Positions 67 through 12,736 of a stretch of DNA of 64,000 bases are shown here, piece after piece. The position numbers and the translations under genes were made by a program. The notes beneath the pieces were generated by a model, which did no database searches, was not told the origin of the DNA, and worked only from the letters and a program-made list of their open reading frames with translations. Source of the DNA: Methylomonas sp. (GTDB lineage Bacteria; Pseudomonadota; Gammaproteobacteria; Methylococcales; Methylomonadaceae); NCBI GenBank assembly GCA_002928965.1, contig PERU01000005.1:1-64000 (forward strand), given 5' to 3'. Each line of letters starts with the position of its first letter. Position 1 is the stretch's first letter.

Positions 67-130
67 GCTGAACGAAGTGAAGCGCATCGTTCGCGACAGA
101 TGCGCCTCCTATCGTCGGCAGCATCCTACA
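67..130 (+). repeat. Dispersed repeat R2, copy 1
   Basis: About 64 bp, found again inverted at 10946-11009 with few differences. It contains a hairpin with GCGCATC/GATGCGC arms around a short loop. In both places it lies about 70 bp from the 5' edge of an R1 element in the same relative orientation, so R2 and R1 may form one longer unit. Confidence 0.7.
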
Positions 131-203
131 ATAGAACTTGATACCCAAAATACAAATTTATCCAATAACTTTTCTTCGCGCGAGGGGGTTAATCCCCTTT
201 TGC

Positions 204-443
204 CGCGCCGAGCACCGGAGGGTTTGGACGGATCAGCCCGCAGGGGAGCGGCAGGGATGCCGCTCGTTTTCGGAGGGCTATGGATAGCCCTTCCGAAAAC
301 CCCGTTCAAACCCTTCGGCGCGCAGGATAAAAGCGGCATGGGGTGGCCTTTCTTTTGGGTACTTTTCTTTGGCCGTCCAAAGAAAAGTACCTCGGCTGTC
401 GGGCCGAGACCCGACATTAAAATAAAGCCGTCGCGCTAGCGAC
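204..443 (+). repeat. Structured repeat R1, copy a
   Basis: One of four copies of a hairpin-rich element (others: 4653-4992 minus, 10636-10875 minus, 12491-12730 plus). Visible pairings: an outer stem P1 between 204-231 and 302-322; H1 246-253 with 258-265; H2 267-281 with 284-299; H3, a perfect 15-bp stem, 358-372 with 377-391; H4 398-403 with 410-415; H5 430-434 with 439-443. No protein family resemblance. No plus-strand gene follows this copy. Confidence 0.8.
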
Positions 444-561
444 ACAAAACCCCAACTTTAAGCTATCCATGGCTTCTGGATTCCGGCAATCCATGCCGGA
501 ATGACGTGTTCGTTAAGATCAATCCAATTCGATAAGACGACACCAGACAAAACAAATATGT

Positions 562-1413
562 TTATGTCGCCCAAATCCTCGGCGCACAAACTGCCTTCCC
601 AACCACATCCCCCCGCACCAATCCCCAAACCCTCTCAAAAAAACCCTTCAACAAATCCGCCCGCCTATCCAAGCTCCGACATATCAACAACCCCTCAATC
701 AACGTCACCCCGCGATTAGCCTCATCCCCAATCAATTCCTGCACCGCCGCCAACTGCAAAGGTGTAGCCGGATAAACAAACATCGTCCCGCAAGCCGAAT
801 GCCCGAATAAACCCCAGCGGGCTTGAAACGCTGCCGCATCCAGGCGTAAGCGTTCCAGGTAAAACAAGCGCCCGGCACGGCTGATGCGCCAGTTTAAGGT
901 GGCGGAGCCATTCTCAAAACCTTCGTCGGCTGCCGGGCGGCCTAAGGCCAATATCTCCCAACCGATGAAATGAGCGTGGTCAGCCAAGTCGATATTCATG
1001 GAAGAATTCAATTGGGCGCCTTGGTAAACAATGGTTTCCTGCGGCAACCATTCCAAACTGGCGTTTTCGGCGATTGTCAAATTGATGGTTTGCTGTGCTT
1101 CGCCGCCGCCGCTGCGGTAAAACTTGCCAGCTGCAGGGGTTGTGATCAGCGCTTGAGCGTTGTCTTCGACGCAGGCTTCGGTAGTCAATCGATCACCGGC
1201 GACCACCCCGCCGGGCGGGTGCAGCAAATACACATGACAAACGCCGCCTTCCGGGTAAAAAGGCCGCTGTACGGTCAGTGGGCCGCGATGCTCGCGTTTT
1301 GACAATACGGTTTTGTCGCCACGCTGGGTAAAACCCAGCTTCAATTCGGCTTCCCAGGCCGATGCATCGGCTACGCAATTTGAATTGGAATGCTCTGCGA
1401 AATCTGGACGCAT
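562..1413 (-). CDS. ureD: Urease accessory protein UreD (UreH)
   Basis: A 283-aa urease accessory protein. In the known urease maturation pathway UreD binds apo-urease and recruits UreF and UreG for nickel insertion in the cytoplasm. The sequence has the family's central core, including HPPGGVVAGD near residues 65-74 and the following ITTPAAGKFYRS stretch. Length is normal for the family. The gene is last in view of the urea operon, 148 bp downstream of a small membrane protein. ureABC and ureEFG are not in the window; the order suggests they may lie further left or elsewhere in the genome. The start gives a normal-length N-terminus. Confidence 0.93.
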   Translation of the reverse strand: MRPDFAEHSNSNCVADASAWEAELKLGFTQRGDKTVLSKREHRGPLTVQRPFYPEGGVCHVYLLHPPGGVVAGDRLTTEACVEDNAQALITTPAAGKFYRSGGGEAQQTINLTIAENASLEWLPQETIVYQGAQLNSSMNIDLADHAHFIGWEILALGRPAADEGFENGSATLNWRISRAGRLFYLERLRLDAAAFQARWGLFGHSACGTMFVYPATPLQLAAVQELIGDEANRGVTLIEGLLICRSLDRRADLLKGFFERVWGLVRGDVVGKAVCAPRIWAT

Positions 1414-1561
1414 ACTGATCGAAGTTATTGATTTAATAATTATTGGATCCGCGCAATAACTGTATTTTATGCGTTAGTCGCTTGGCGAAAATCAGCTTGG
1501 GACTTGTGGTTGCCCCTGCTTTAAAAAACAGTGCTGGCGAAAATTATTCTAAAAAATCCCC

Positions 1562-1867
1562 CTACGCCCGTTTTATGTCCCGTGGGTATTTTTTCAAACG
1601 GGGAAATCCCAACTTACTGACATTGCCGCCAATCCGGCGCTGGGAGATGTGCAATAAAACCGGGCCCAGCACACACCCCAAAATTAATGCACCTATCAAG
1701 AAAGTTGGCAGTTGCGGGGTTTCCAAAAAGGGGTGTATGGCGGCGCGGGTCAATTGCAGAAGATTGCCACCTGCCATCATCGCCTCATGACTGTCATGTG
1801 CCGCGCTTGGCATTGACCAGACCAAGAGCAATGCGCCGATCGTTGAGAGATATTTTTCAGAATTCAT
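1562..1867 (-). CDS. Small exported/membrane protein in the urea operon
   Basis: A 101-aa protein of unknown function. The start at 1867 is chosen because GGAG lies about 8 bases before the ATG and it opens directly with a signal peptide (residues 1-21, ending SAAHD). After it come a His/Met-bearing segment (HDSHEAMMAG) and one strong membrane helix near residues 53-74 (TFLIGALILGCVLGPVLLHI). The tail is basic. The 3' end, roughly 1555-1607, resembles the GC-rich core of repeat R3, so the last 15 residues may derive from an inserted repeat. It lies between urtE and ureD in the same orientation and may act in urea or nickel handling, but this rests on position only. Confidence 0.6.
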   Translation of the reverse strand: MNSEKYLSTIGALLLVWSMPSAAHDSHEAMMAGGNLLQLTRAAIHPFLETPQLPTFLIGALILGCVLGPVLLHISQRRIGGNVSKLGFPRLKKYPRDIKRA

Positions 1868-1939
1868 CGTAAGTTCTCCAAGTGGATGTAATGGGTATGT
1901 GGATAAGCGTAGCGTATTCACTCTAAATGTGTAAAACGC

Positions 1940-2716
1940 TTACACCGTCAAATAACGCTTTACCATATCGTCCGCCAATTCATTCATTGCCCCCATTGCC
2001 ACATGCCGCCCACGGTCCATGATGCAAAACTGATTGGCTACCTTGCGGGCGAACGGTAATTTTTGTTCGACCAGTAAGACTGTCACGCCGAGTTCTTTAT
2101 GGATGCGGTCGATGGCTTGGTGAATTTCGCCGGTTTCCGGTTTGGCGATCGGGGAAGACACACCTCGCGATTTGTTCAAGCGAATAATCACATCGCCGAT
2201 TTCGCTGACGATGTTGGGTTGGATGCCTTCGGTGGGTTCATCCAAAATCAGCAGACGAGGATTTAGCACCAAGGCCCGGCCAATCGCTAATTGCTGTTGC
2301 TGGCCGCCGGACAGATCACCGCCCCGGCGCTTCAGCATTTGTTTTAACACTGGAAAAATCTCGAAAATACTGTCCGGGACTTTTTTGATGCCGTGTTTGT
2401 TAGCGGCGCGCAAGCCGGTTTTCAGATTTTCTTCCACGGTTAATAACGGAAAGATTTCCCGACCCTGCGGCACGTAACCGATGCCCATTTCCGCGCGGGA
2501 TTCGGCTTTGGCCTTGGCCAATTCCACCCCGTCGAATTGAATACTGCCGTCTGCCACTGGCAGCAGGCCCATGATGGCTTTGAGTAGCGTAGTTTTGCCG
2601 ACGCCGTTGCGGCCCATCAGGCAGACGCAGGACCCGGCCGGCACGCTCAAATCCAGGTCCCACAAGGTGTGGCTGGCGCCATAGTATTGTTGCAATGCAC
2701 TGATAGTTAACATCAT
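1940..2716 (-). CDS. urtE: Urea ABC transporter ATP-binding protein UrtE
   Basis: One of the two ATPase subunits of the high-affinity urea ABC importer, a member of the LivF-like branched-chain amino acid transporter group; it drives urea import at the inner membrane. Visible motifs: Walker A GRNGVGKTT near residues 36-44, signature LSGGQQQQLAIGRAL, Walker B LLILDEPTEGI, and a downstream VLLVEQ switch region. At 258 aa it is longer than the usual 230 or so because of an insertion after the Walker B (around SRGVSSPIAKPETGEIHQ). Its start overlaps the urtD stop by four bases, so translation is probably coupled. Confidence 0.95.
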   Translation of the reverse strand: MMLTISALQQYYGASHTLWDLDLSVPAGSCVCLMGRNGVGKTTLLKAIMGLLPVADGSIQFDGVELAKAKAESRAEMGIGYVPQGREIFPLLTVEENLKTGLRAANKHGIKKVPDSIFEIFPVLKQMLKRRGGDLSGGQQQQLAIGRALVLNPRLLILDEPTEGIQPNIVSEIGDVIIRLNKSRGVSSPIAKPETGEIHQAIDRIHKELGVTVLLVEQKLPFARKVANQFCIMDRGRHVAMGAMNELADDMVKRYLTV

Positions 2717-3519
2717 CCCCCCAGGTAAACTTGGATCACGCGCGGATCGTTTTGTACTTCATCCATCGTGCCTTCGGTGAGCACAGAGCCTTCGTGCAAC
2801 ACCGTCACTTTCCGGGCGATGCTGCGCACGAACTCCATATCGTGTTCGACCACGACGATGGAGCGATTGCCCTGCAAGGACAGCAATAATTCGGCGGTAC
2901 GCTCCACTTCCTGATGGGTCATGCCGGCAATGGGTTCATCGACCAGCATCACTTTCGGATCCTGCATCAGCAGCATGCCGATTTCCAGCCATTGCTTCTG
3001 ACCGTGCGATAAGGCGCCAGCCAATTGCCGTTGTTGGGCGGGGAGGGCGATGGTTTGCAAGACGTCGTGGATACGGTCGCGCTGTTCGTCATTTAATTTA
3101 TGGAACAGCGTCGGCCAAGTGCGTTTGTCGGTTTTTAAAGCCAATTCCAGGTTTTCAAACACGGTCAAGGCGTCAAATACGCTGGGTTTTTGAAACTTAC
3201 GACAAATACCGGACTGGGCAATGGCCGGCTCGTCCAATTCCAGCAAGTCGATGGTCTGGCCGAAGAACACCGAGCCGCTGTCGGGCTTGGTTTTGCCGGT
3301 GATCACGTCCATTAGCGTGGTTTTGCCGGCACCGTTAGGACCGATCAGGCAACGTAGTTCGCCGTCATCGATATACAGCGACAGATGGTTCAGCGCCCGG
3401 AAGCCGTCAAAGCTGACGCTGACATCTTCCATGTACAGAATCGGTCCATGGCGGGCGTCGACTGCTCCGCCCAAGGGCAGACTGGCACCGCCTTCAGTTG
3501 TGATTGCCGAGATCATCAT
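2713..3519 (-). CDS. urtD: Urea ABC transporter ATP-binding protein UrtD
   Basis: The second ATPase subunit of the urea importer (LivG-like), 268 aa. It has Walker A GPNGAGKTT, the signature region LSHGQKQWLEIGM typical of UrtD, Walker B VMLVDEPIAGM and the H-loop VVVEHDMEF. About 25 extra residues precede the nucleotide-binding fold. Start and stop overlap urtC and urtE by four bases each, indicating tight co-translation of urtC, urtD and urtE. Confidence 0.95.
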   Translation of the reverse strand: MMISAITTEGGASLPLGGAVDARHGPILYMEDVSVSFDGFRALNHLSLYIDDGELRCLIGPNGAGKTTLMDVITGKTKPDSGSVFFGQTIDLLELDEPAIAQSGICRKFQKPSVFDALTVFENLELALKTDKRTWPTLFHKLNDEQRDRIHDVLQTIALPAQQRQLAGALSHGQKQWLEIGMLLMQDPKVMLVDEPIAGMTHQEVERTAELLLSLQGNRSIVVVEHDMEFVRSIARKVTVLHEGSVLTEGTMDEVQNDPRVIQVYLGG

Positions 3520-4634
3520 GCCGGTTGTCCTCTGGTAGCGTTAGGGGTGGGTTTGAGTTTAATACGCCGCCGCAACAGGCCGACGATGCCATCAGGCATT
3601 AACAAGGTAACCAAGATAAAGGCGCCGCCCAAACAAAATAGCCAAGCGTCAGGCATCAGACCGGTCAACACGGTTTTGGCGTAGTTGACCAACACCGCGC
3701 CGATGATCGCACCGTATAAAGTGCCGCGCCCGCCGACCGCGACCCAGATGACAATTTCCAATGAGTTTAAGGGTGAGAATTCGCTGGGGTTGATGATGCC
3801 GACCTGCGGCACATACAAAGCGCCGGCTAGTCCGGCCAGCATCGCCGCGAACACAAACACCCACAGTTTGAACAATTCCACCCGGTAACCGAGAAAACGC
3901 ACCCGTGACTCCTGATCGCGAATGGCCGTGACCACCCGACCCAATTTACTGTTGCCGATCCAGCGACAGAGCAGCAAAGCGCCGATCAGACTCAGACCAG
4001 TCATTAATAATAATACCGAACGGACTGCTTCGGACTGGATATTGAATCCCAGGATGTCTTTGAAATCGGTGAGGCCGTTATTACCGCCGAAGCCCATTTC
4101 GTTGCGGAAGAAGGCCAGTAATAAGGCGTAGGTCAAAGCCTGAGTAATGATGGACAGATACACGCCGGTGACCCGCGAACGAAACGCCAACCAACCGAAC
4201 ACGAAGGCCAGCAGGCCGGGGGCGAGAAGCACCATCAGCATCGCAAATCCAAAATTACCGAAGCCGTACCAATACCAGGGTAGTTCGGTCCAGTTCAGAA
4301 ATACCATGAAATCCGGCAGTTCGGCGTTGCCGTAGACGCCGCGGGTGCCGATCTGTCGCATCAGATACATGCCCATTGCATAGCCCCCCAACGCGAAGAA
4401 GGCGCCCTGGCCGAGAACCAGAATCCCGGCGTAACCCCAGACCATGTCCAGTGACAATCCCAACAACGCAAAGGTCAGGTATTTGCCAATTAGCGACACG
4501 CTGTAGGCCGAGAAATGCAAAGCGGAATCTTCGGGGAAGATTAGGTTACAGAGGGGGATTAATAGGGTTACCGATGCTAACGCGGTTAGGACAGTGCAGT
4601 AGGTTTTGTCTTGGGTCAGATTTTGTAGGTTCAT
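3516..4634 (-). CDS. urtC: Urea ABC transporter permease UrtC
   Basis: Inner-membrane permease of the urea importer (LivM-like), 372 aa with about eight to ten hydrophobic segments. The EAA-like loop is seen in VVTAIRDQESRVRFLGYRVELFK and the family segment in GRGTLYGAIIGA near the C-terminus. It pairs with UrtB to form the channel. The gene is separated from urtB by a 484-bp repeat mosaic although the rest of the operon is tightly packed. AAAGG lies about 10 bases before the ATG, and the R1 copy b tail ends 18 bases upstream of the start in sense orientation. Confidence 0.95.
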   Translation of the reverse strand: MNLQNLTQDKTYCTVLTALASVTLLIPLCNLIFPEDSALHFSAYSVSLIGKYLTFALLGLSLDMVWGYAGILVLGQGAFFALGGYAMGMYLMRQIGTRGVYGNAELPDFMVFLNWTELPWYWYGFGNFGFAMLMVLLAPGLLAFVFGWLAFRSRVTGVYLSIITQALTYALLLAFFRNEMGFGGNNGLTDFKDILGFNIQSEAVRSVLLLMTGLSLIGALLLCRWIGNSKLGRVVTAIRDQESRVRFLGYRVELFKLWVFVFAAMLAGLAGALYVPQVGIINPSEFSPLNSLEIVIWVAVGGRGTLYGAIIGAVLVNYAKTVLTGLMPDAWLFCLGGAFILVTLLMPDGIVGLLRRRIKLKPTPNATRGQPA

Positions 4635-4652
4635 TTGACTGCCTTTAGTTGT

Positions 4653-4992
4653 GTCGCTGGCGCGACGGCTTTTTTATAAGTCTGTTTCACGAAACACATC
4701 CATGTGTTTCGCCCTGCGGGTGCTGCGCATGCAAATCGGCTATCCTGCCGATTTGTCAGCCCGACAGCCGAGGTACTTTTTTTTGATTGCCCTCGGCAAT
4801 TGCTCCTGCATTGCTCTACCTCCTGCATCCATGCAGTCGAAAGAAAAGGGCAACCGGATGCCGCTTTGATCCTGCGCGCCGAAGTTTTTGAATGGGGTTG
4901 GCGGAAGGGGCTTCCTGCCCCTCCGCAAACGCGATGCATCCCTGCACCGCCCCTGCGGGCTGTTCCATTCAAAAACTCCGGTGCTCGGCGCG
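4653..4992 (-). repeat. Structured repeat R1, copy b (interrupted)
   Basis: Reverse-orientation R1 copy. H5 is at 4653-4666 (GTCGC/GCGAC), H2 is in the GGAAGGGG/CCCCTCC region near 4900-4930, and the outer stem P1 is kept by different base pairs from copy a (TTTTTGAATGG-type arms near 4880 and 4965). H3 is broken by a MITE2-like core fragment. Read on the minus strand, the element ends 18 bases before the urtC start codon. Confidence 0.75.
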
Positions 4993-5011
4993 GCATACGG
5001 GGTTTTCTCTC

Positions 5012-5110
5012 GTTCCTACGCGCTGCGTGGGAATGCGGAAGTTCCGCGCCCGCGGTGAAATTCTTGCCGCGGGCGCGGCTGAGCCTGGTTCCCACGCAGC
5101 GCATGGGAAC
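5012..5110. repeat. Nested palindrome upstream of urtC
   Basis: Outer arms 5012-5033 and 5089-5110 are near-perfect reverse complements (22 bp, about two mismatches). Inside them, 5044-5055 and 5067-5078 form a perfect 12-bp all-GC stem with an 11-base loop. It lies nine bases after the urtB stop on the minus strand and could form a strong mRNA hairpin that protects or attenuates the transcript. Confidence 0.75.
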
Positions 5111-5118
5111 TAGAAAAT

Positions 5119-6864
5119 CTAAGATTCCGCTGCCCTGCCTTTCTGCGGAAACAACCCCCGCGGCTTCTTCTGAATAAACAAAATAATGAACACCAACACC
5201 AAAATCTTCGCTAACACCGCCCCGGCATAAGGCTCCAACACTTTGTTAGCAATACCCAAGGTAAAACCCGCCACCAGGGTGCCGAACAAATTCCCCACCC
5301 CACCAAACACCACCACCATGAACGAATCCACGATATAAGCCTGACCCAGATTCGGCCCGACGTTGGTGATCTGGCTCAACGCCACCCCGGCCACACCGGC
5401 GATACCAGACCCTAAACCAAAGGTCATCGCATCGACTCGGGCGGTCGGAATACCCATCGCCCTGGCCATGCCGCGATTTTGCGCCACCGCTCTGACTTCC
5501 AGACCTAATTTGGTGCGTTTGAGGATTTGCAGCAGCGCGGTAAACACCAGCAGGCAGAAGACCAGGATGTAGAAACGGTTCCAGGTCAGTGATAAAAAGT
5601 CATTGATCTGCCAGGAACCACTCATCCACTCGGGTGTGGAAACGCTGCGATTCAGCGGCGAGAAAATTGAGCGCACCGCTTGTTGCAGAAACAAACTAAC
5701 GCCGAAAGTTGCTAATAACGTTTCCAGCGGCCTGCCGTACAGAAAGCGAATCACACCGCGTTCGATAGCGATACCCACCAGCGCCGCCACCAAAAAGGCC
5801 ATCGGGATCGATACTATCAACGCAGTGCCAAGATAATTGGGCATTAATTGCTGCATGACATAGGTGGTGTAAGCGCCCAGCATCATTAATTCGCCGTGCG
5901 CCATATTAATAATACCCATTACCCCAAAGGTAATCGCCAAACCGATAGCCGACAACACTAACACTGCGCCCAGACTCAAACCAAAAAATACTGTCTCGAT
6001 AGCGGCATAGGTTTTCAATCGGCCATTGATAGTGACCAGTGCAGCTTCAGCAAGGTTGCGTATATCGCTATCGGCTTCCAGAAATTCACCATCCGCGTCT
6101 TTTTCGGTCAGCGTTTGCAGCCGGTTGGCGGCATCCTGACTGTTGTGTTCTTTCAGCGCCGTGATGGCGGCAATCCGTGCGGTTTTGTCTTGGCTGTCCA
6201 AGTCTTTAATCAATAAAACCTGCTCAATGGCCGCACGTACCTTGGCGTCTTGTTCCTGAATCAAACGGGTACGCAACAACTCCAAGGACTTGTCGTCGAT
6301 ATCTTTAATCATGGCTTTGACCGCAATCAAACGGGCGTCGGCATCGTCGACATTCAGTTGTAACTGCCCAATCACCTTGCGTAAAGTGCTGCGTAGTTTG
6401 TTGGTGAGATTGATCTTGCCGACGGCACTACGCTCGACTTCAGGCAGATTTTCGCCGCTGATGGCGTCAGTCAGTTGATAACCCAGCGAACTCTCACTAC
6501 CGATCACCAATTTAGACTCGGCTTTCAGATCAAACAATTTGCCATCCTGCAGGGCTTGCAGCAGCTTTAGACTGCGGCTGTCAGCGACCAGACTTTCAAT
6601 GGCCTGCTCACGTTCGACCATACTGCCTTGGCGGATTTGCTCCAGAGCCAAGGCAAACGCGTCAGCCGTCTGTGCCGAAACCGGCAATGCCAGAATCAAC
6701 AATAACAACACAGCCAACACTAAAAACGATTTGAAAACGCCACGCCATCTTTGTCCCAACCACTGAGAAGTAGTAGTAACGAAATCAGGAGTTGCAGCGA
6801 GCGAAGCAGTCGAACGCTGACGGAATGGCGTTTTTAAATCCTTTTTGGGTAGATTCAATGTCAT
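5119..6864 (-). CDS. urtB: Urea ABC transporter permease UrtB
   Basis: Inner-membrane permease of the urea importer (LivH-like), 581 aa from the ATG at 6864, chosen because GAG lies about 9 bases upstream; a TTG four codons earlier is the alternative. It shows the two-part UrtB layout: an N-terminal hydrophobic segment (about residues 45-65, ending VSAQT), a roughly 200-residue soluble region with short charged repeats, then about eight membrane helices of the LIV-permease fold from residue 285 on. The family loop is seen in RAVAQNRGMARAMGIPTARVDAMTFGLGSGIAGVAG. The gene is 68 bp downstream of urtA. Confidence 0.95.
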   Translation of the reverse strand: MTLNLPKKDLKTPFRQRSTASLAATPDFVTTTSQWLGQRWRGVFKSFLVLAVLLLLILALPVSAQTADAFALALEQIRQGSMVEREQAIESLVADSRSLKLLQALQDGKLFDLKAESKLVIGSESSLGYQLTDAISGENLPEVERSAVGKINLTNKLRSTLRKVIGQLQLNVDDADARLIAVKAMIKDIDDKSLELLRTRLIQEQDAKVRAAIEQVLLIKDLDSQDKTARIAAITALKEHNSQDAANRLQTLTEKDADGEFLEADSDIRNLAEAALVTINGRLKTYAAIETVFFGLSLGAVLVLSAIGLAITFGVMGIINMAHGELMMLGAYTTYVMQQLMPNYLGTALIVSIPMAFLVAALVGIAIERGVIRFLYGRPLETLLATFGVSLFLQQAVRSIFSPLNRSVSTPEWMSGSWQINDFLSLTWNRFYILVFCLLVFTALLQILKRTKLGLEVRAVAQNRGMARAMGIPTARVDAMTFGLGSGIAGVAGVALSQITNVGPNLGQAYIVDSFMVVVFGGVGNLFGTLVAGFTLGIANKVLEPYAGAVLAKILVLVFIILFIQKKPRGLFPQKGRAAES

Positions 6865-6932
6865 AACAGTTCTCAATTTGGGTGTTGATCACCACGGCGT
6901 CCTTGCCACGGCAATTCAAATAAAGCCTTTGC

Positions 6933-8234
6933 TTAGTAATTCTGTCCTGAACACTTTTTGGTTTTGGTGTTGTAGTTACCGCAACTGATCGGCGCAGTCC
7001 AGTCAGCGATAATCGGTTTGCTATCCGGCAGAAAGTCCGACCAAGCATCACCATCGACCACTTTATTGGTTTGCCAGACGGTGACAAACTGACCGTCTTC
7101 CTGAATTTCGCCAATCAACACCGGTTTACTGATGTGATGGTTAGGCAGCATTTTCGCTACACCACCGCTGAGGTTAGGAAACTCCACACCAATCAGGGCT
7201 TTTTGTACGGCGTCAGCATCGGTGGTACCGGCTTTCTCGACCGCTTTCACCCACATGTTGAAACCGATGAAATGCGCTTCCATTGGGTCGTTGGTGACGC
7301 GTTTGGGGTTTTTGATGTAATCCTTCCACTGCTGGATAAACGCAGCGTTTTTGGTGGTATCGACGCTCATGAAGTAGTTCCAGGCGGCCAAGTGACCAAC
7401 CAGCGGTTTGGTATCCATACCGGATAACTCTTCCTCGCCGACCGAAAAGGCCACGACCGGAATATTCTCTGCAGACACACCCTGGTTACCCAACTCTTTA
7501 TAGAAAGGTACATTGGCGTCGCCGTTGATGGTGGATACCACTGCAGTCTTCTTGCCAGCAGCACCAAATTTCTTGATGTCGGAAACAATGCTTTGCCAAT
7601 CGGAATGGCCGAATGGGGTGTAGTTGATCATGATGTCTTTTTCTTTGACACCTTTGGCTTTCAGGTAGGCTTCCAGGATTTTGTTGGTGGTACGTGGATA
7701 GACGTAATCAGTACCGGCCAATACCCAGCGCTGAATTTTCAGGTCGTTCATTAAATAATCGACTGCCGGAATGGCTTGTTGATTGGGCGCCGCGCCAGTG
7801 TAAAACACGTTTTTTGAGGATTCTTCGCCTTCGTATTGCACCGGGTAAAACAGAATGCCATTCAGTTCTTCGATCACTGGCAATACCGATTTACGCGACA
7901 CCGAAGTCCAGCAACCGAAGATGGACGCGACCTTGTCTTTCGTTAACAACTCCCGGGCTTTTTCGGCAAACAGCGGCCAATTGGAGGCAGGGTCGACGAC
8001 CACCGCTTCCAGCTTTTTGCCCAACAAACCGCCTTTTTTGTTCTGCTCGTCGATCAGCATCAACATGGTGTCTTTCAGAGTGGTTTCCGAGATAGCCATG
8101 GTGCCGGATAAGGAGTGCAGTACGCCCACTTTGATGGTGTCTTCAGCGTAAGCGGATGTGGCCGTGCCGAACAGCGCGGCAGACAGTGCCGTGGCAGTCG
8201 CCAGTTTACGGAAGGATTTGCTCAGTATTTTCAT
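6933..8234 (-). CDS. urtA: Urea ABC transporter substrate-binding protein UrtA
   Basis: Periplasmic urea-binding lipid-free receptor of the importer, 433 aa. The start at 8234 has AGGA about 8 bases before it and opens with a signal peptide (MKILSKSFRKLATATALSAALFG... cleaved after SAYA, about residue 27). The mature part matches the UrtA/FmdD family: VGVLHSLSGTMAISE, GCWTSVSRKSVLPV, LFYPVQYEGEE. It is normally the most abundant transporter component. It follows the porin gene with a 121-bp gap that carries a TGGGCAC-rich repeat. Confidence 0.96.
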   Translation of the reverse strand: MKILSKSFRKLATATALSAALFGTATSAYAEDTIKVGVLHSLSGTMAISETTLKDTMLMLIDEQNKKGGLLGKKLEAVVVDPASNWPLFAEKARELLTKDKVASIFGCWTSVSRKSVLPVIEELNGILFYPVQYEGEESSKNVFYTGAAPNQQAIPAVDYLMNDLKIQRWVLAGTDYVYPRTTNKILEAYLKAKGVKEKDIMINYTPFGHSDWQSIVSDIKKFGAAGKKTAVVSTINGDANVPFYKELGNQGVSAENIPVVAFSVGEEELSGMDTKPLVGHLAAWNYFMSVDTTKNAAFIQQWKDYIKNPKRVTNDPMEAHFIGFNMWVKAVEKAGTTDADAVQKALIGVEFPNLSGGVAKMLPNHHISKPVLIGEIQEDGQFVTVWQTNKVVDGDAWSDFLPDSKPIIADWTAPISCGNYNTKTKKCSGQNY

Positions 8235-8283
8235 CTTAATAGTCCTATGTCGAGGAGAAATCGAGGGCAATGGCTGCCCGTTT

Positions 8284-8355
8284 TGTAGGGTGGGCATACC
8301 AAGCCCAAAGATTGTGTTTGTTACACGTGGGCACGTAAATCGTGCCCACCTATCC
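8284..8355. repeat. Short GTGGGCAC-type repeat between porin and urtA
   Basis: A GTAGGGTGGGCA...TGCCCACC inverted sequence. A similar one occurs at about 55143-55236. It could act as an intercistronic hairpin between the porin and urtA messages. Confidence 0.5.
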
Positions 8356-9603
8356 TTAAATCTGCCACTGGAAGCCAACCATCATCTGGCTGACGCTTTC
8401 GCCGGTAGCGTTAGATCTGTAATTCAGGCCTTTCGACAACAAATCGCCGTATTGGTAACTGACGTTGATTTTGGCATTGTGGCCGTCGATGACGTAATTG
8501 AGGCCGGCTTCGTAGACTTCGCGGGTCGAACTGGTTTCCGGTTCGACGTTGACGTACCGCAGATAGGGTTGGAACTGGCCGATGCCAACTTTTTGTGGGA
8601 ATAAATACATGCCGCTGACGTCATAGGCGTTGCCTTCGAACATGTCGAACATCGTCAGCCCTCCGGGTCCACCAGCGTCACGAGTGGCTTGGCTAAAGCC
8701 TTTGGAAATACCGTAGTTTTTGTATTCACCGTTCAGGGTTACGACCCCGCCATTGGATAAAACCTTTTCCATCAAGACATCCACTGTGGTACCGCGAAAA
8801 TTACCGGCATCAAGCTGAGTACCTGCACCGTCTTCCTGATATTGATTTGTTACGCCGACGGTCAGAATGTCGCCGCCTGTGCCGTAATAACTGCCGGAGG
8901 TGTAATAACCCGGATTTTTTTCAACTTCCCAAAAGTTGTAGGCAAAGCGTTGCGCATACAGAATGTTGCTATCGGAATTGGCGCCACCGCGCAGACCACG
9001 GAAGAAACCCAACGCATATTGAAAACGACCATTGAAGGCTGCGCCCCAAAATGTTGCACCGTCATCACGACCAAAGGATCCCGCCGAGGTGCCATCGTCT
9101 CTGATCACCAGATTGTAATCAGCCGGCGAAAACGGCGTGCCGGCGGAGAAAATGTTGTACACCGGGCTGAAAAACGGGCCGTTCATTTCCCGACGCTCTG
9201 CTGGCACCAACATTCGGCCTATCCATAAATTGTAGAGTGGATCGACCTCGATTTTGCCAATAGCATCCAGCACCCGCACCTCGCCACCATTGCTGCAGGT
9301 TTGACAGTCGGTGTTGAATTCCACCTTCAGGTATTTGTGAATCTGACCATTGAGATATAGACGGATGTTGTCAAGCGCAAAATCATTGCTCCATTTATCG
9401 CCATCACCACCTGCAGCGCTATCCTGGGCACGGAAACTGGTACGTAAACCGGCACCAATGCTGACCCATTTGGTGTCATCGATTTTAAATGTCGCTCCGG
9501 CTTGCGCCTCAGACACATAGCCAACCATCAACGCACTCAAGGCCGTGCCTACCAATAGCCGACCCGGCCGGCTAACTCCTGTTTGTTGCTTGAAACTACT
9601 CAT
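8356..9603 (-). CDS. Outer-membrane porin of the urea operon
   Basis: A 415-aa outer-membrane beta-barrel protein, first gene of the urea operon. The start at 9603 is chosen because GGGG lies 7 bases upstream. A signal peptide ends at about AQAG (residue 36). The rest alternates short polar and aromatic strands and ends in an outer-membrane C-terminal signature (MMVGFQWQI, a final hydrophobic strand). Sequence style fits the OprP/OprO-like or selenite-type porin group. Co-transcription with urtABCDE suggests it lets urea or short amides cross the outer membrane, but substrate is inference. Confidence 0.8.
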   Translation of the reverse strand: MSSFKQQTGVSRPGRLLVGTALSALMVGYVSEAQAGATFKIDDTKWVSIGAGLRTSFRAQDSAAGGDGDKWSNDFALDNIRLYLNGQIHKYLKVEFNTDCQTCSNGGEVRVLDAIGKIEVDPLYNLWIGRMLVPAERREMNGPFFSPVYNIFSAGTPFSPADYNLVIRDDGTSAGSFGRDDGATFWGAAFNGRFQYALGFFRGLRGGANSDSNILYAQRFAYNFWEVEKNPGYYTSGSYYGTGGDILTVGVTNQYQEDGAGTQLDAGNFRGTTVDVLMEKVLSNGGVVTLNGEYKNYGISKGFSQATRDAGGPGGLTMFDMFEGNAYDVSGMYLFPQKVGIGQFQPYLRYVNVEPETSSTREVYEAGLNYVIDGHNAKINVSYQYGDLLSKGLNYRSNATGESVSQMMVGFQWQI

Positions 9604-9710
9604 CTGCATTCCCCTATTCCGATCAAAACCTGTCAAGGCAGCTTGACCTTGGCGTTTAAAAAACTTCGGGGAGATTTTTGAATTTTATGGACACGCTGCA
9701 CAATCGGGCG

Positions 9711-9728
9711 AATGACTGATCAGTCATT
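9711..9728. promoter_or_regulatory. Perfect 18-bp palindrome in the porin/exported-protein divergent promoter
   Basis: AATGACTGATCAGTCATT reads identically on both strands. It lies between the divergent starts at 9603 and 9786, the usual place for a dimeric repressor or activator site. A related TGACTG-N2-CAGTCA is at 17369-17382. Confidence 0.55.
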
Positions 9729-9785
9729 TGACGTATGGCCTCAATTGAGCGGTTTCCGTAGAGTGAAGCTCAAATTCGGAGAACC

Positions 9786-10532
9786 ATGATCATGACAATA
9801 TCATTGAAATGTAATGCCATTGCCTGGGGGATGCTGCTGACGATCTGTTGTATTCAACCGGCTAAAGCGGAAACACCAAATAACCAGCCAAAGCAGCTCA
9901 CTGCTATTGAACTGGTAATCGCTGACGATCACCTGCAGCAGTTTGGCACGGCTATATCGGCTGCCAGCATCGGTGAAAAAGTCAGCGCCAATTTGACTGA
10001 GTGGGAGTTTCCAGTCCAAGCTACCGGACCTTACAGCCATCAACTCAAAGCCAGACTGGGCTTGATCAGCCGTCAGAAAACCCCGGTGGGTTTCTCGTTC
10101 TCCAGCGGCAACTCCGACCCGCGTGCCGGCGATTTTCAAAAAGCCAATGTATTGCCTGTCACGTGCACACTCAGCGATGCCGAACATCACATCGTGTTAA
10201 TCGAGCGCGAATCGACCTTTAGCGCTCATGCTTTCGATAACGACAAATTGCCGGATCAAATCAGCAAAAAACTGATCGATCAGATCAGTACAGCCTGTCT
10301 GGATGTATTGGAAAGCGCACCGCAACCCAAAACCGCAGGCAGGGTCAAAACCGAATTGTTTAAACCAAAATGGATGCCGGATGTCCGGGTAGAAGTGCGG
10401 GAAATTCCGGCAACTGTTGATGGCAAGGGTGCTGCCCAACCAGCGGCGATTGGCGATGAACCGAAGAAGGAAGTTATTATTCACAATCAAGGCACGCCGG
10501 TGATTTTTAAGTTTGGGTTTGAGCGGTTGTAA
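9786..10532 (+). CDS. Exported protein of unknown function, divergent from the urea operon
   Basis: A 248-aa protein with a clear Sec signal peptide (hydrophobic core about residues 9-25, cleavage near PAKAE). GGAG lies 6 bases before the first ATG; a second ATG two codons later is also possible. The mature protein is soluble, polar, with no repeats, and ends in a strand-rich segment (EVIIHNQGTPVIFKFGFERL). I do not recognise the family. Position opposite the porin across a shared palindrome suggests common control with urea uptake. Confidence 0.7.
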   Translation: MIMTISLKCNAIAWGMLLTICCIQPAKAETPNNQPKQLTAIELVIADDHLQQFGTAISAASIGEKVSANLTEWEFPVQATGPYSHQLKARLGLISRQKTPVGFSFSSGNSDPRAGDFQKANVLPVTCTLSDAEHHIVLIERESTFSAHAFDNDKLPDQISKKLIDQISTACLDVLESAPQPKTAGRVKTELFKPKWMPDVRVEVREIPATVDGKGAAQPAAIGDEPKKEVIIHNQGTPVIFKFGFERL

Positions 10533-10635
10533 TGTTTTGCTTGCTGCTATTTTGACCATATTTGATTTTTACATTTGATTGATGATCGATTTGTTCCTTC
10601 TCCCTGAGGGAGAAGGCTAATGAGGGGGATAAGGT

Positions 10636-10875
10636 GTCGCTATCGCGACGGATTTTGTTACAGTCGGGTCTCGGCCCGACAGCCGAGTGACTTTTCTTTG
10701 TTTGGCCAAAGAAAAGTCACCAAAAGAAAAGCCACCCGGATTCCGCCTTAATCCTGCGCTTCTCGCTTTTGCCGAGGGTTTTCGAAGGACCATCCTTGGT
10801 CCTACGAAAACGAGCGGCTTACTGCCGCTCCCCTTTGGGCCTATTTCGCCAAAAGCTGCGATGCTCGGGGCGGTA
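10636..10875 (-). repeat. Structured repeat R1, copy c
   Basis: Reverse-orientation copy. H5 10636-10649 (GTCGC/GCGAC). H4 is GTCGGG/CCCGAC near 10663-10680. H3 is a TGACTTTTCTTTG/CAAAGAAAAGTCA stem near 10687-10720. H2 has AGGACCA/TGGTCCT arms near 10783-10803. H1 is GAGCGGC/GCCGCTC near 10812-10832. The sequence is the most diverged of the four copies but every stem survives. Confidence 0.75.
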
Positions 10876-10945
10876 TAACGGGAGTAACCCCGTGGCGGGA
10901 TTGATGGTGATTGGATGATTTTAAAAGCTAGGTTTGTAATTGTGT

Positions 10946-11009
10946 TGTAGGATGCTGCCGACGTAAGGAGGCGCATCGTTCGCGACCGATGCGCTTCACT
11001 CCGTTCAGC
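10946..11009 (-). repeat. Dispersed repeat R2, copy 2
   Basis: Inverted copy of 67-130, lying about 70 bp beyond the P1 end of R1 copy c, the same spacing as at the left edge of the window. Confidence 0.7.
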
Positions 11010-11046
11010 AAAACCTACAGGACTCACATCACCATAAGGAGACAAG

Positions 11047-12255
11047 ATGACGCTAAACCTTAGCTACAAAAGTATCGCCTGGTTTGTATTAATAATGACA
11101 GCCTTGGGTGTTGTTGTTGGACTCGCCGGACCGCGCATTGGCCACTTAATTACCGGATCATTGGCATTAATAGCGAGTGTGGCTTTTCGGATTAATGCTT
11201 TAAAAGAAGCAAGCCGAGAGCGAGAAGAACAAGAAAAACAGATTCGGAAAGCGGAATCTCAACAAGAATTCACTGAGCGCATCCATCTTCAGGCTCAAGA
11301 AAAAACCCAGATGGTTGAACTCCGGCCAAATCAAAATCGCCTGCATATCCGTGAAACAAGCGATGGTTTCTCGGAAGTGGATTGGCGAGATCAGCTTGAG
11401 GAAGTTAAGACAGCATGGGAAGCAGGTGACTTTGAGTTTGCTAGAACTTGGTTGCAAAAACTTGCTTACAGATTGTCAACTGAACAAGCGCCTCAATCAG
11501 TACACGATGAGTTCAAAGCGTTAATGACAGCCTTTACTCGCGAAGATCCCCTTTATGCTGACGTGATGAAATCAGTGTTACCGGTAATTGCAGAGAATCC
11601 CTACGTCATCCAAAGCGAATTATCCAAACAGTTCCCAGAGTTTGATCCGGAACAGTTCCGCTACGCGATGTATTATGCCGAGCAGATTGGCGATGTGTTA
11701 AGAACTAAAAAAGGTCGCAGTTCTGCACTGTCTATACCAGAGCCCAAAGCTGAGAAGACGAAACAAACTCAAAAAAGCTTTGAATTATTGATGGCGTTTA
11801 TTGCCGCCACGCTTAATAAAATGCCAGATGAATGGGGTAAGGCTCGTGAATTGTCGGGAATGGATGCAATCAATGTGCTATGGCCGCTCAATGATATTTT
11901 TAGGCCGCATATGCCTGAAATCGTTGCGTTGCCGTATGACAAAACGCTGGAAACCGAAGCGGACTTAGCTATTGAGGCATTTATCGGCGGAGAAGGCGAG
12001 TCAGCTTGGGAAAGGCTTTCATTGGGTGTTTGGAGGGTGTTAGTCGAGCGGCACACTCAAGCACTAGTTGTTGCCAGGACAAATGAAGCTGCTGGAAACT
12101 CGGTTATGACAATACCGGAGGATTTACCTGAACACGCATGGTTATGCGCGACGATGCTGTATTTAATGTATCAAATGGAGCTCCCTTATCCGGTGAAACC
12201 ATTATCTCTAACCGGATTTCCAGCGGTTGGAGTCCCTGCACCGCTCGCAATTTAA
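11047..12255 (+). CDS. Membrane-anchored protein of unknown function
   Basis: A 402-aa protein with two N-terminal membrane helices (about residues 9-26 and 32-47), a charged coiled-coil-like stretch (about 50-90, rich in E, K, R and Q) and a soluble helical C-terminal domain. GGAG lies 8 bases before the ATG. I see no catalytic motif. The helical region with regularly spaced tryptophans and acidic residues does not match a family I can name. The base composition looks more AT-rich than the kinase gene after it. It stands alone between two repeat-filled gaps, which may mean recent arrival. Confidence 0.65.
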   Translation: MTLNLSYKSIAWFVLIMTALGVVVGLAGPRIGHLITGSLALIASVAFRINALKEASREREEQEKQIRKAESQQEFTERIHLQAQEKTQMVELRPNQNRLHIRETSDGFSEVDWRDQLEEVKTAWEAGDFEFARTWLQKLAYRLSTEQAPQSVHDEFKALMTAFTREDPLYADVMKSVLPVIAENPYVIQSELSKQFPEFDPEQFRYAMYYAEQIGDVLRTKKGRSSALSIPEPKAEKTKQTQKSFELLMAFIAATLNKMPDEWGKARELSGMDAINVLWPLNDIFRPHMPEIVALPYDKTLETEADLAIEAFIGGEGESAWERLSLGVWRVLVERHTQALVVARTNEAAGNSVMTIPEDLPEHAWLCATMLYLMYQMELPYPVKPLSLTGFPAVGVPAPLAI

Positions 12256-12283
12256 CGACACAACAACACAAAAAGCAGCCCGC

Positions 12284-12438
12284 GTAGGTCCGATTAGCGT
12301 AGCGTAACCGGACGAATGGAATATTTAAATTAATTAAAATTTGTAAATTATCGGAAGAGAAATAATTTTTGGTAAGTATTTGTAAATTAATTGAAATGCT
12401 AAACATCCGTCCGATTACGCTGCGCTAATCGGACCTAC
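12284..12438. mobile_element. MITE-like element with 33-bp terminal inverted repeats
   Basis: Arms 12284-12316 and 12406-12438 are reverse complements with about three mismatches and begin GTAGGTCCGATTAGCG. The interior is about 90 bp of very AT-rich DNA with no coding capacity. This fits a non-autonomous transposable element, or a repeat able to fold into one long hairpin. Confidence 0.75.
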
Positions 12439-12490
12439 CGAAATTCATTTTTTCGATTTTAAATCCGGGATGGTTTTAGTCCCCTGATGC

Positions 12491-12730
12491 CGCGCCGAGC
12501 ACCGGAGGGTTTGGACGGAATTGCCCGCAGGGGCGATGCAGGGATGCATCGCGTTTTTCGCAAGGGCTTGGATGCCCTTTCGAAAAACCCCGTTCAAACC
12601 TGAGGAGCGCAGGAAAAAAGCGGCATGGGGTGGCCTTTTCTTTGGCTACTTTCTTTTGGCGAAGCAAAAGAAAGTAGCTCGGTCGTCGGTCCGAGAACCG
12701 ACATCTAAAATAACCCGTCGCAATAGCGAC
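12491..12730 (+). repeat. Structured repeat R1, copy d
   Basis: H1 12534-12551 (CGATGCA/TGCATCG around GGGA), H2 12554-12587, H3 12645-12678 (GCTACTTTCTTTTG/CAAAAGAAAGTAGC), H4 12685-12702 (GTCGGT/ACCGAC), H5 12717-12730 (GTCGC/GCGAC). It ends six bases before the start codon of the permease-kinase and shares the tail GCGACACAACT with the copy ahead of urtC. Confidence 0.8.
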
Positions 12731-12736
12731 ACAACT

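Follow-up and report, generated by a model that had tools for sequence, protein, structure and literature searches.

R1, a dispersed repeat of Methylomonas, forms one of the two arms of a non-coding element and has a putative triple-helix pseudoknot

Analysis of a 64,000-nucleotide stretch of Methylomonas sp. DNA (contig PERU01000005.1, positions 1 to 64,000; hereafter the window) revealed that R1, a structured repeat present there in four copies, forms one of the two arms of a dispersed non-coding element. The arms are inverted with respect to each other and face outward; at the two sites examined, different species share this bracket but not the gene that it encloses. The arm most likely works as folded RNA, and the complete reading, in which R1 is the arm of such an element and works as folded RNA around exchangeable cargo, is given about an even chance. 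A previous reading of the window, made from the sequence only, had placed the copies at 204-443 (copy a, plus strand), 4653-4992 (copy b, minus), 10636-10875 (copy c, minus) and 12491-12730 (copy d, plus); these positions are right, except that the element is longer by about 20-25 nt on the 5' (inner) side. The arm is about 270 nt long in Methylomonas. Copy b is damaged, in that it aligns well only in its 5' half (4840-4992) and has other sequence in place of its 3' half. Pseudoknots and an apparent triple helix, outward-facing pairs with cargo and a spread over many gammaproteobacterial families go beyond that first description.

Fold of the R1 arm and its covariation

The plus strand of R1 keeps a stem, P1, with two hairpins inside it, followed by an H-type pseudoknot showing the pattern of a pyrimidine-purine-pyrimidine triple helix, by two helices that overlap and by a hairpin at the end. 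In copy d, P1 (12508-12518 with 12590-12600, the whole feature spanning 12508..12600) encloses H1 (12534-12540 with 12545-12551) and H2 (12553-12567 with 12574-12588, one mismatch), both with GGA in the loop. The putative triple-helix pseudoknot (12631..12677) is composed of S1' (12631-12634 with 12659-12662, with one mismatch in this copy), the third strand (12636-12643) and S2 (12646-12658 with 12665-12677); PKa (12678-12682 with 12691-12695) and PKb (12685-12690 with 12697-12702) overlap each other within 12678..12702, and the terminal hairpin GTCGC..GCGAC with the outer end occupies 12717..12732, all on the plus strand.

Covariation was examined in an alignment of 72 of the 75 full-length Methylomonas copies (L007:1793, L062 and L083:3812 were dropped), with the structure set by hand. 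Standard pairs make up 97.8% of the paired cells, and structures slid along the alignment as controls are paired at 36-48%. Two-sided changes occur in 36 of the 72 base pairs (shuffled mean 22.1) and in 440 cells (shuffled mean 114), and none of 500 shuffles equals any of the covariation measures. Thus the claim that stems persist while both arms change holds for most helices, far above shuffles and slid controls. H1 alternates between CGATGCA/TGCATCG and AGCGGCA/TGCCGCT types; P1, H2, S2, S1', PKa and PKb also vary in paired fashion. P1 had been described as covarying; it does vary on both sides, except in its outer part, where, as in H0, no two-sided change was found among the 72 copies. The hairpin previously called H4 (GTCGGG/CCCGAC) is a covarying helix, but it overlaps a second one, CTCGG/CCGAG, so that the PKa/PKb region may be either a pseudoknot or two alternative hairpins. 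Similarly, the stem of the former H3 stands as S2, but its loop also pairs with an upstream TGGC-type strand.

The covariation extends outside the genus. Among 74 distinct cores, nearly all from genera other than Methylomonas and a few from other phyla, S1' and S2 together are 96.3% paired and show two-sided change in 15 of 18 pairs; aligning the copies, measuring covariation and searching relatives, as the sequence-only reading had proposed, therefore gave strong covariation both in Methylomonas and in other genera. Folding energies of the window copies are also low with respect to dinucleotide-shuffled sequences (minimum free energy z-scores of -9.1 for a, -7.5 for c, -6.6 for d and -6.5 for b), no shuffle being as low (200 each for a, c and d, 100 for b).

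A protein-coding reading was rejected, since the five open frames that overlap R1 have no NCBIfam match and copies differ among themselves by single-base insertions and deletions. These frames had been regarded as by-products, and the fold rather than a protein as the object of selection; both views are borne out, the latter also by the compensatory changes and by the joint variation of a third strand and a hairpin.

GGA is kept by 71 of the 72 copies in the loop region of H1 and by 71 in that of H2 (12541-12544 and 12568-12573 in copy d); 57 of the 72 H1 loops have the form C-ARGGAT-G. Among the matches listed, many arms in other families (for example L142, L157 and L160), inspected by eye, have a single inner hairpin, TGTTTGAGC..GCGAGTT, instead of the two GGA hairpins, possibly with tandem sheared G-A pairs.

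A putative triple helix and the folding strand

S2 is preceded by a pyrimidine run whose letters follow those of the S2 arm: the arm CAAAAGAAAG goes with the run TTTTCTTTGG, and the arm CAAAGAAAAG with the run TTTCTTTTGG, the exceptions being one of the 72 copies with other letters and one that parses oddly. The correspondence is that of the parallel Hoogsteen rule (T on A-T, C on G-C). In addition, the S2 loop pairs with the bases that immediately precede the run to give S1', in the variants TGGC/GCCA, TTGC/GCAA, TCGC/GCGA, CCGC/GCGG and TGTC/GACA. S1', run and S2 thus form an H-type pseudoknot, in which the run would lie in the deep groove of S2.

The rule was examined in 81 distinct sequences out of 161 matches, the remainder being mostly reverse-strand echoes or duplicate loci; 78 cores could be parsed, six of them from the genus of the window. 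In the best parallel register 76 of the 78 cores are perfect, against a shuffled mean of 41 and 39 of 78 in the antiparallel orientation, and none of 2000 shuffles reaches as good a total triple-match score. Other families display further third-strand variants, TTTCTTCTT with AAAGAAGAA and TTCTCTTTT with AAGAGAAAA. A register alignment of 75 chosen cores, five from the genus of the window and 70 from others, gave 574 matching cells of 600 in the expected parallel register, at most 383 (64%) in other parallel registers and a fraction of at most 0.785 in antiparallel ones. Mutual information has its peaks at the column pairs that this register predicts (0.25, 0.59 and 0.73); equal cross-peaks are also present and are caused by two alternative G positions.

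The fold had been ascribed to RNA or to single-stranded DNA, and a single-strand fold is indeed supported. In the plus orientation the 72 Methylomonas copies have 88 G-T against 28 A-C combinations, P1b and H2 alone account for 71 against 6, and the cross-genus core has 33 against 7. This wobble excess points to the plus strand as the putative folding strand, although not in every helix.

Paired arms, exchangeable cargo and distribution

The arrangement of the arms was counted in two complete genomes, G011 and G013, assembled in one and two contigs, using 82 of 86 matches (four short pieces were dropped) from the best 40 candidates per genome and keeping out regions picked for holding pairs. 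Of 30 neighbours within 5 kb, 24 are in -/+ order, four +/-, two +/+ and none -/-. In other genera, all 25 neighbours within 1 kb are -/+; they were found in 60 loci, taken from the at least 80 given by one pattern scan of named genomes, with Methylomonas and some relatives left out. Four further neighbours in these loci are at least 1.4 kb apart and of mixed order. In 29 units (28 from Methylomonas, selected for being paired, plus that of the window) the gap is 0.3-3.4 kb and mostly contains one or two open reading frames (ORFs); four units have more and one has none.

The outer ends are sharp (GTGTCGC..GCGACAC), with outward flanks that are A-rich and nearly G-free over six bases. No target duplication (0 bases) was found in 23 of 25 pairs, so that a classic miniature inverted-repeat transposable element or DNA transposon generating such a duplication was rejected. 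YCTAC, the end of inward-facing repetitive extragenic palindromes (REPs) of the GTAG type, is carried by 47 of 84 copies on their inner side, against a mean of 18 in shuffles; the opposite orientation, GTAGR, is found in 32 of 84, a count without shuffle control. Rare fused forms of about 75 bp have both outer ends sharing one central hairpin (L095:1944-2018 and L104:1420-1494; also in G002, G015 and G018). As a regular empty state this form was rejected, because the exact pattern gives only four in three of 41 genomes, and they are taken as deletions.

Cargo turnover is evident at two sites. The symporter site has a 248-amino-acid gene upstream and downstream the gene that, as recognised by eye, is presumably a symporter/histidine kinase; an R1 pair is present in nine of 14 genomes, with some arms interrupted, and five lack it. 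RAYT is found in eight of the nine units, the unit of the Methylomonas genome analysed here being without it; the RAYT of G013 matches NCBIfam NF047646 with 196.7 bits. No two non-RAYT cargo ORFs of at least 75 amino acids at this site match each other at 1e-3. Thus a RAYT is normally present here, accompanied by a gene that changes, since eight of nine units have it and the other genes all differ. At ureD-ureA, 18 loci comprise eight with both arms (two left arms interrupted), three with one arm (two of them at contig ends), two with fused ends and five with none. The eight units have seven different first genes (two are 90% alike), RAYT comes next in two of them, and all 11 cargo ORFs read with the operon. 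In several species (L094-L104) this gap also holds small two-gene cassettes, which by eye we take to be RelBE- and YefM/YoeB-type toxin-antitoxin look-alikes.

In the list of 29 units a RAYT-type Y1 gene is present in three, compared with the eight of nine at the symporter site. Pfam matches above cut-off were obtained for seven of 20 cargo proteins: DUF4145, NA37, DUF4062, DUF3825, DUF2971, Y1_Tnp and KAP NTPase. A PADLOC scan of ten cargo proteins gave one match, the KAP NTPase (PDC-S20, 512 bits), which is a candidate phage-defence gene. RAYT genes are abundant in Methylomonas (for example in G013 and G008), with at least 24 matches in the top genome; R1 lies within 1.5 kb of RAYT in 12 of 28 loci and is absent from this range in 16.

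In the window, copy d (12465..12732, plus) is the right arm and copy c (10634..10898, minus) the left arm of the symporter-site unit, which brackets a cargo gene of 402 amino acids (11047..12255, plus). Pfam, NCBIfam and PADLOC give no match for this gene; it occurs in one of 41 genomes (its own), the 40 relatives being without a match, and the plasmid collection has none either. A GTAG-type REP lies between copy c and the cargo (10947..11021, plus, end approximate), and two more, inverted to each other, lie between the cargo and copy d (12284..12438, limits approximate). Only four bases separate copy d from the ATG (12737) of the presumed symporter/histidine kinase gene. Copy a (178..445, plus) is the right arm of a ureD-ureA unit, with a GTAG-type REP end on its inner side (117..129, minus) and its partner arm past the contig edge. 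As ureA and an R1 end sit at the start of contig C45, this end, which precedes ureA, is apparently the partner, and the two contigs would then be joined. The damaged copy b (4653..4992, minus) lies between two genes that, by eye, are presumably urtC and urtB.

The dyads examined sit between genes, some within operons, as at ureD-ureA. By a rough ORF rule the surrounding genes are co-directional in 29 cases, convergent in 13 and divergent in six (48 scored, five not scored); a strong preference for one gene arrangement was rejected, as only divergent gaps look avoided. An Aggregatibacter dyad (L200:1790-2211) lies just before a gene resembling parC, which we take it to be from its sequence; its spacer contains AAGTGCGGT-like words that presumably resemble DNA uptake signals.

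A BLAST search gave 32 R1 matches in the 85 contigs of the source genome, many of them partial and some being reverse-strand echoes of the H3 hairpin. Matches are present in 30 of 41 genomes (this one and 40 relatives), often about 20 in each, with the best 18 candidates per genome scored. Among the matches listed, the R1 core model finds 35 of 143 genomes sampled over Gammaproteobacteria and 32 of 200 sampled over the phylum; 15 of these belong to the class and 17 to a single other family. The latter 17 genomes (G185-G366), not gammaproteobacterial, have one to four weak core matches each (35-49 bits, among the matches listed), which may reflect chance or a distant relative. Named carriers include Methylomonas, Acidovorax, Dyella, Lysobacter, Silvimonas, Polaromonas, Aggregatibacter, Actinobacillus and metagenome-assembled genomes of Desulfobacterales. 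Zero matches were found for a 66-base R1 core in phages and for a 57-base core in E. coli; in the plasmid collection copy d partly matches four records over 42-50 query bases. Short R1-core matches occur at six places of Ilyobacter polytropus NC_014633.1, a 0.96-Mb replicon listed as plasmid.

The repeat had not been assigned to any family, and this is confirmed in that no Rfam 15 family reaches its gathering cut-off in the window or in 18 loci of other families; known RNAs were rejected, RsmW scoring 30.6 bits on copy a against a cut-off of 52, with miRNA and Thr_leader matches also below their cut-offs. No description of the element was found in the literature searched, whose coverage excludes subscription papers, figures and supplements.

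Possible roles, rival explanations and known systems

Owing to the inversion of the arms, a transcript running through a unit from either side would carry one correctly oriented R1 3' of the cargo. There the triple helix and terminal hairpins would serve in protecting or processing the 3' end of the RNA, and foreign genes could thereby be held in intergenic gaps, even inside operons; spread might occur through a trans-acting recombinase that uses the folded ends or through homologous recombination between arms. A broader proposal, advanced tentatively and with less than even confidence, is that there are widespread transposase-less gene sockets, where paired arms, forming RNA and bearing a triple-helix pseudoknot, hold a fixed site while the cargo swaps, and where an RNA end structure, not only a DNA one, is needed for keeping, expressing or exchanging the cargo.

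Several observations weigh against R1 as folded RNA around exchangeable cargo. By the symmetry of these counts, the triple pattern would also agree with a purine-motif triplex on the other strand, and it could form in single-stranded DNA. The G-T excess sits in P1 and H2, while H1, PKa, PKb, H5, P1a and S1' together have 12 G-T and 21 A-C; G-T pairs are rare overall, at 1.7% of the cells, a scarcity that selection acting on both DNA strands could likewise explain. Only one base links PKa to PKb, so that they may not form together. In 25 of the 60 other-genus loci the partner core is 317-640 bases away (core to core), with little or no cargo between; cargo is thus not essential, because the dyads of many genera carry little or none. 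The inverted-arm test is positive in 17 of 20 pairs from other families. Finally, arms within a unit (83.3% identical on average) exceed those of different units (80.0%) in likeness by only a little (permutation p 0.0002, relatedness not controlled), and same-site arms of different species are hardly more alike than others.

R1 pairs could instead be the terminal inverted repeats (TIRs) of a non-autonomous transposon, whose single-stranded DNA fold is read by a Y1 HUH transposase, as in the RAYT-associated TIRtrons, or by another recombinase in trans, with the cargo as a passenger. This, the other main reading, is considered less likely. The sharp outer ends and the 0-base target duplication recall single-strand transposition, YCTAC is in excess in the inner flanks and RAYT lies inside most symporter-site units and some others; RAYT genes flanked by long TIRs are also on record in the accessible part of Di Nocera et al. 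2013 (PMC3733652). Conversely, among the matches listed Y1_Tnp (PF01797) is present in 26 of the 35 genomes that carry the core and in 68 of the 108 that lack it. Y1 is therefore neither needed for R1 nor clearly linked to it, unless PF01797 misses divergent RAYTs, and a Y1 transposase as obligate partner was rejected. Moreover, R1 is near only 12 of the 28 RAYT loci, 11 of these being close relatives in one subfamily, and the TIRtron motif GGGGWSAS is found in one of 72 copies. No transposase dedicated to R1 was found.

The nearly constant GGA in the H1 and H2 loops would fit a dispersed sponge or cis-site for CsrA/RsmA, where the loops titrate or recruit the regulator, and the common H1 loop resembles the consensus RUACARGGAUGU obtained by systematic evolution of ligands by exponential enrichment (SELEX; accessible text of PMC7652899); the sub-threshold RsmW match to copy a goes in the same direction. 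However, this role is improbable: many arms of other families, by eye and among the matches listed, swap the GGA hairpins for the single one described above, the triple helix and the pairing of the arms are left unexplained, and R1 stems are longer than most SELEX ligands in that same text (PMC7652899). Hairpin-templated mutation or recombination in DNA might also produce compensatory changes without selection on the fold, in agreement with the scarcity of wobble intermediates and with the rearrangement of arms, fused ends included. This explanation is largely refuted and retains very little probability, since the third strand is the mirror of the purine arm and not its antiparallel complement, and templated switching cannot make such a three-way covariation; furthermore, GGA loops stay constant while stems change, and the same core is kept across many families.

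If the reading of R1 as a folded RNA arm around exchangeable cargo is true, Rfam lacks a bacterial RNA-like family that has a covarying triple helix, with tens of copies per genome in methanotrophs and with members in Acidovorax relatives, Pasteurellaceae and others. R1 would then mark turnover sites of accessory genes, a candidate phage-defence gene included, and offer a way to collect them.

The nearest precedent is represented by the TIR families beside RAYT-like genes. TIRtrons are RAYT-like (TIRYT) genes with long TIRs (Di Nocera et al. 2013, PMC3733652, accessible part), and the consensus GGGGWSAS is present in some TIRs according to the same part of that paper (PMC3733652) and in the majority according to the accessible part of PMC6006769. 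As far as that text describes them, they share with R1 long, dispersed, multi-copy inverted repeats, often dimers, sometimes around RAYT and partly self-complementary. Differently from them, R1 has a covarying triple-helix pseudoknot and cargo exchange, has the GGGGWSAS motif in only that one copy, either strand considered, mostly brackets other genes and occurs in genomes without a detected Y1 gene. A TIRtron family, such as that of Stenotrophomonas, may nevertheless be a relative, R1 being set apart by description and motif and not by comparison of TIR sequences; there is a real chance that R1 is a new kind of element instead.

REPs are hairpins of 20-40 bp (PMC3733652, accessible part). Like REP, BIME and REPIN elements with their RAYTs, R1 is intergenic, palindromic, dispersed and often in inverted pairs, and GTAG REPs adjoin it; it differs in its length of about 270 nt, its pseudoknots and the cargo between its arms, and its identity as a GTAG REP was rejected, because its outer ends are GTGTCGC..GCGACAC and it is not a short GTAG-tagged hairpin. 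Most integron gene cassettes consist of one accessory gene, of unknown function, next to a folded attC site, and these sites are diverse in sequence and conserved in structure; the cassettes form an array next to an integrase gene and recombine at attC. R1 units similarly have an accessory gene beside a structure-conserved folded site; unlike in cassettes, the R1 arms are inverted and stand at both ends, and the units are dispersed. The telomerase-RNA pseudoknot is of H-type and contains a U-A-U triple helix, with its first loop in the major groove of the second stem. R1, in contrast, is a bacterial dispersed repeat, with about eight putative triples and covarying C+.G-C positions.

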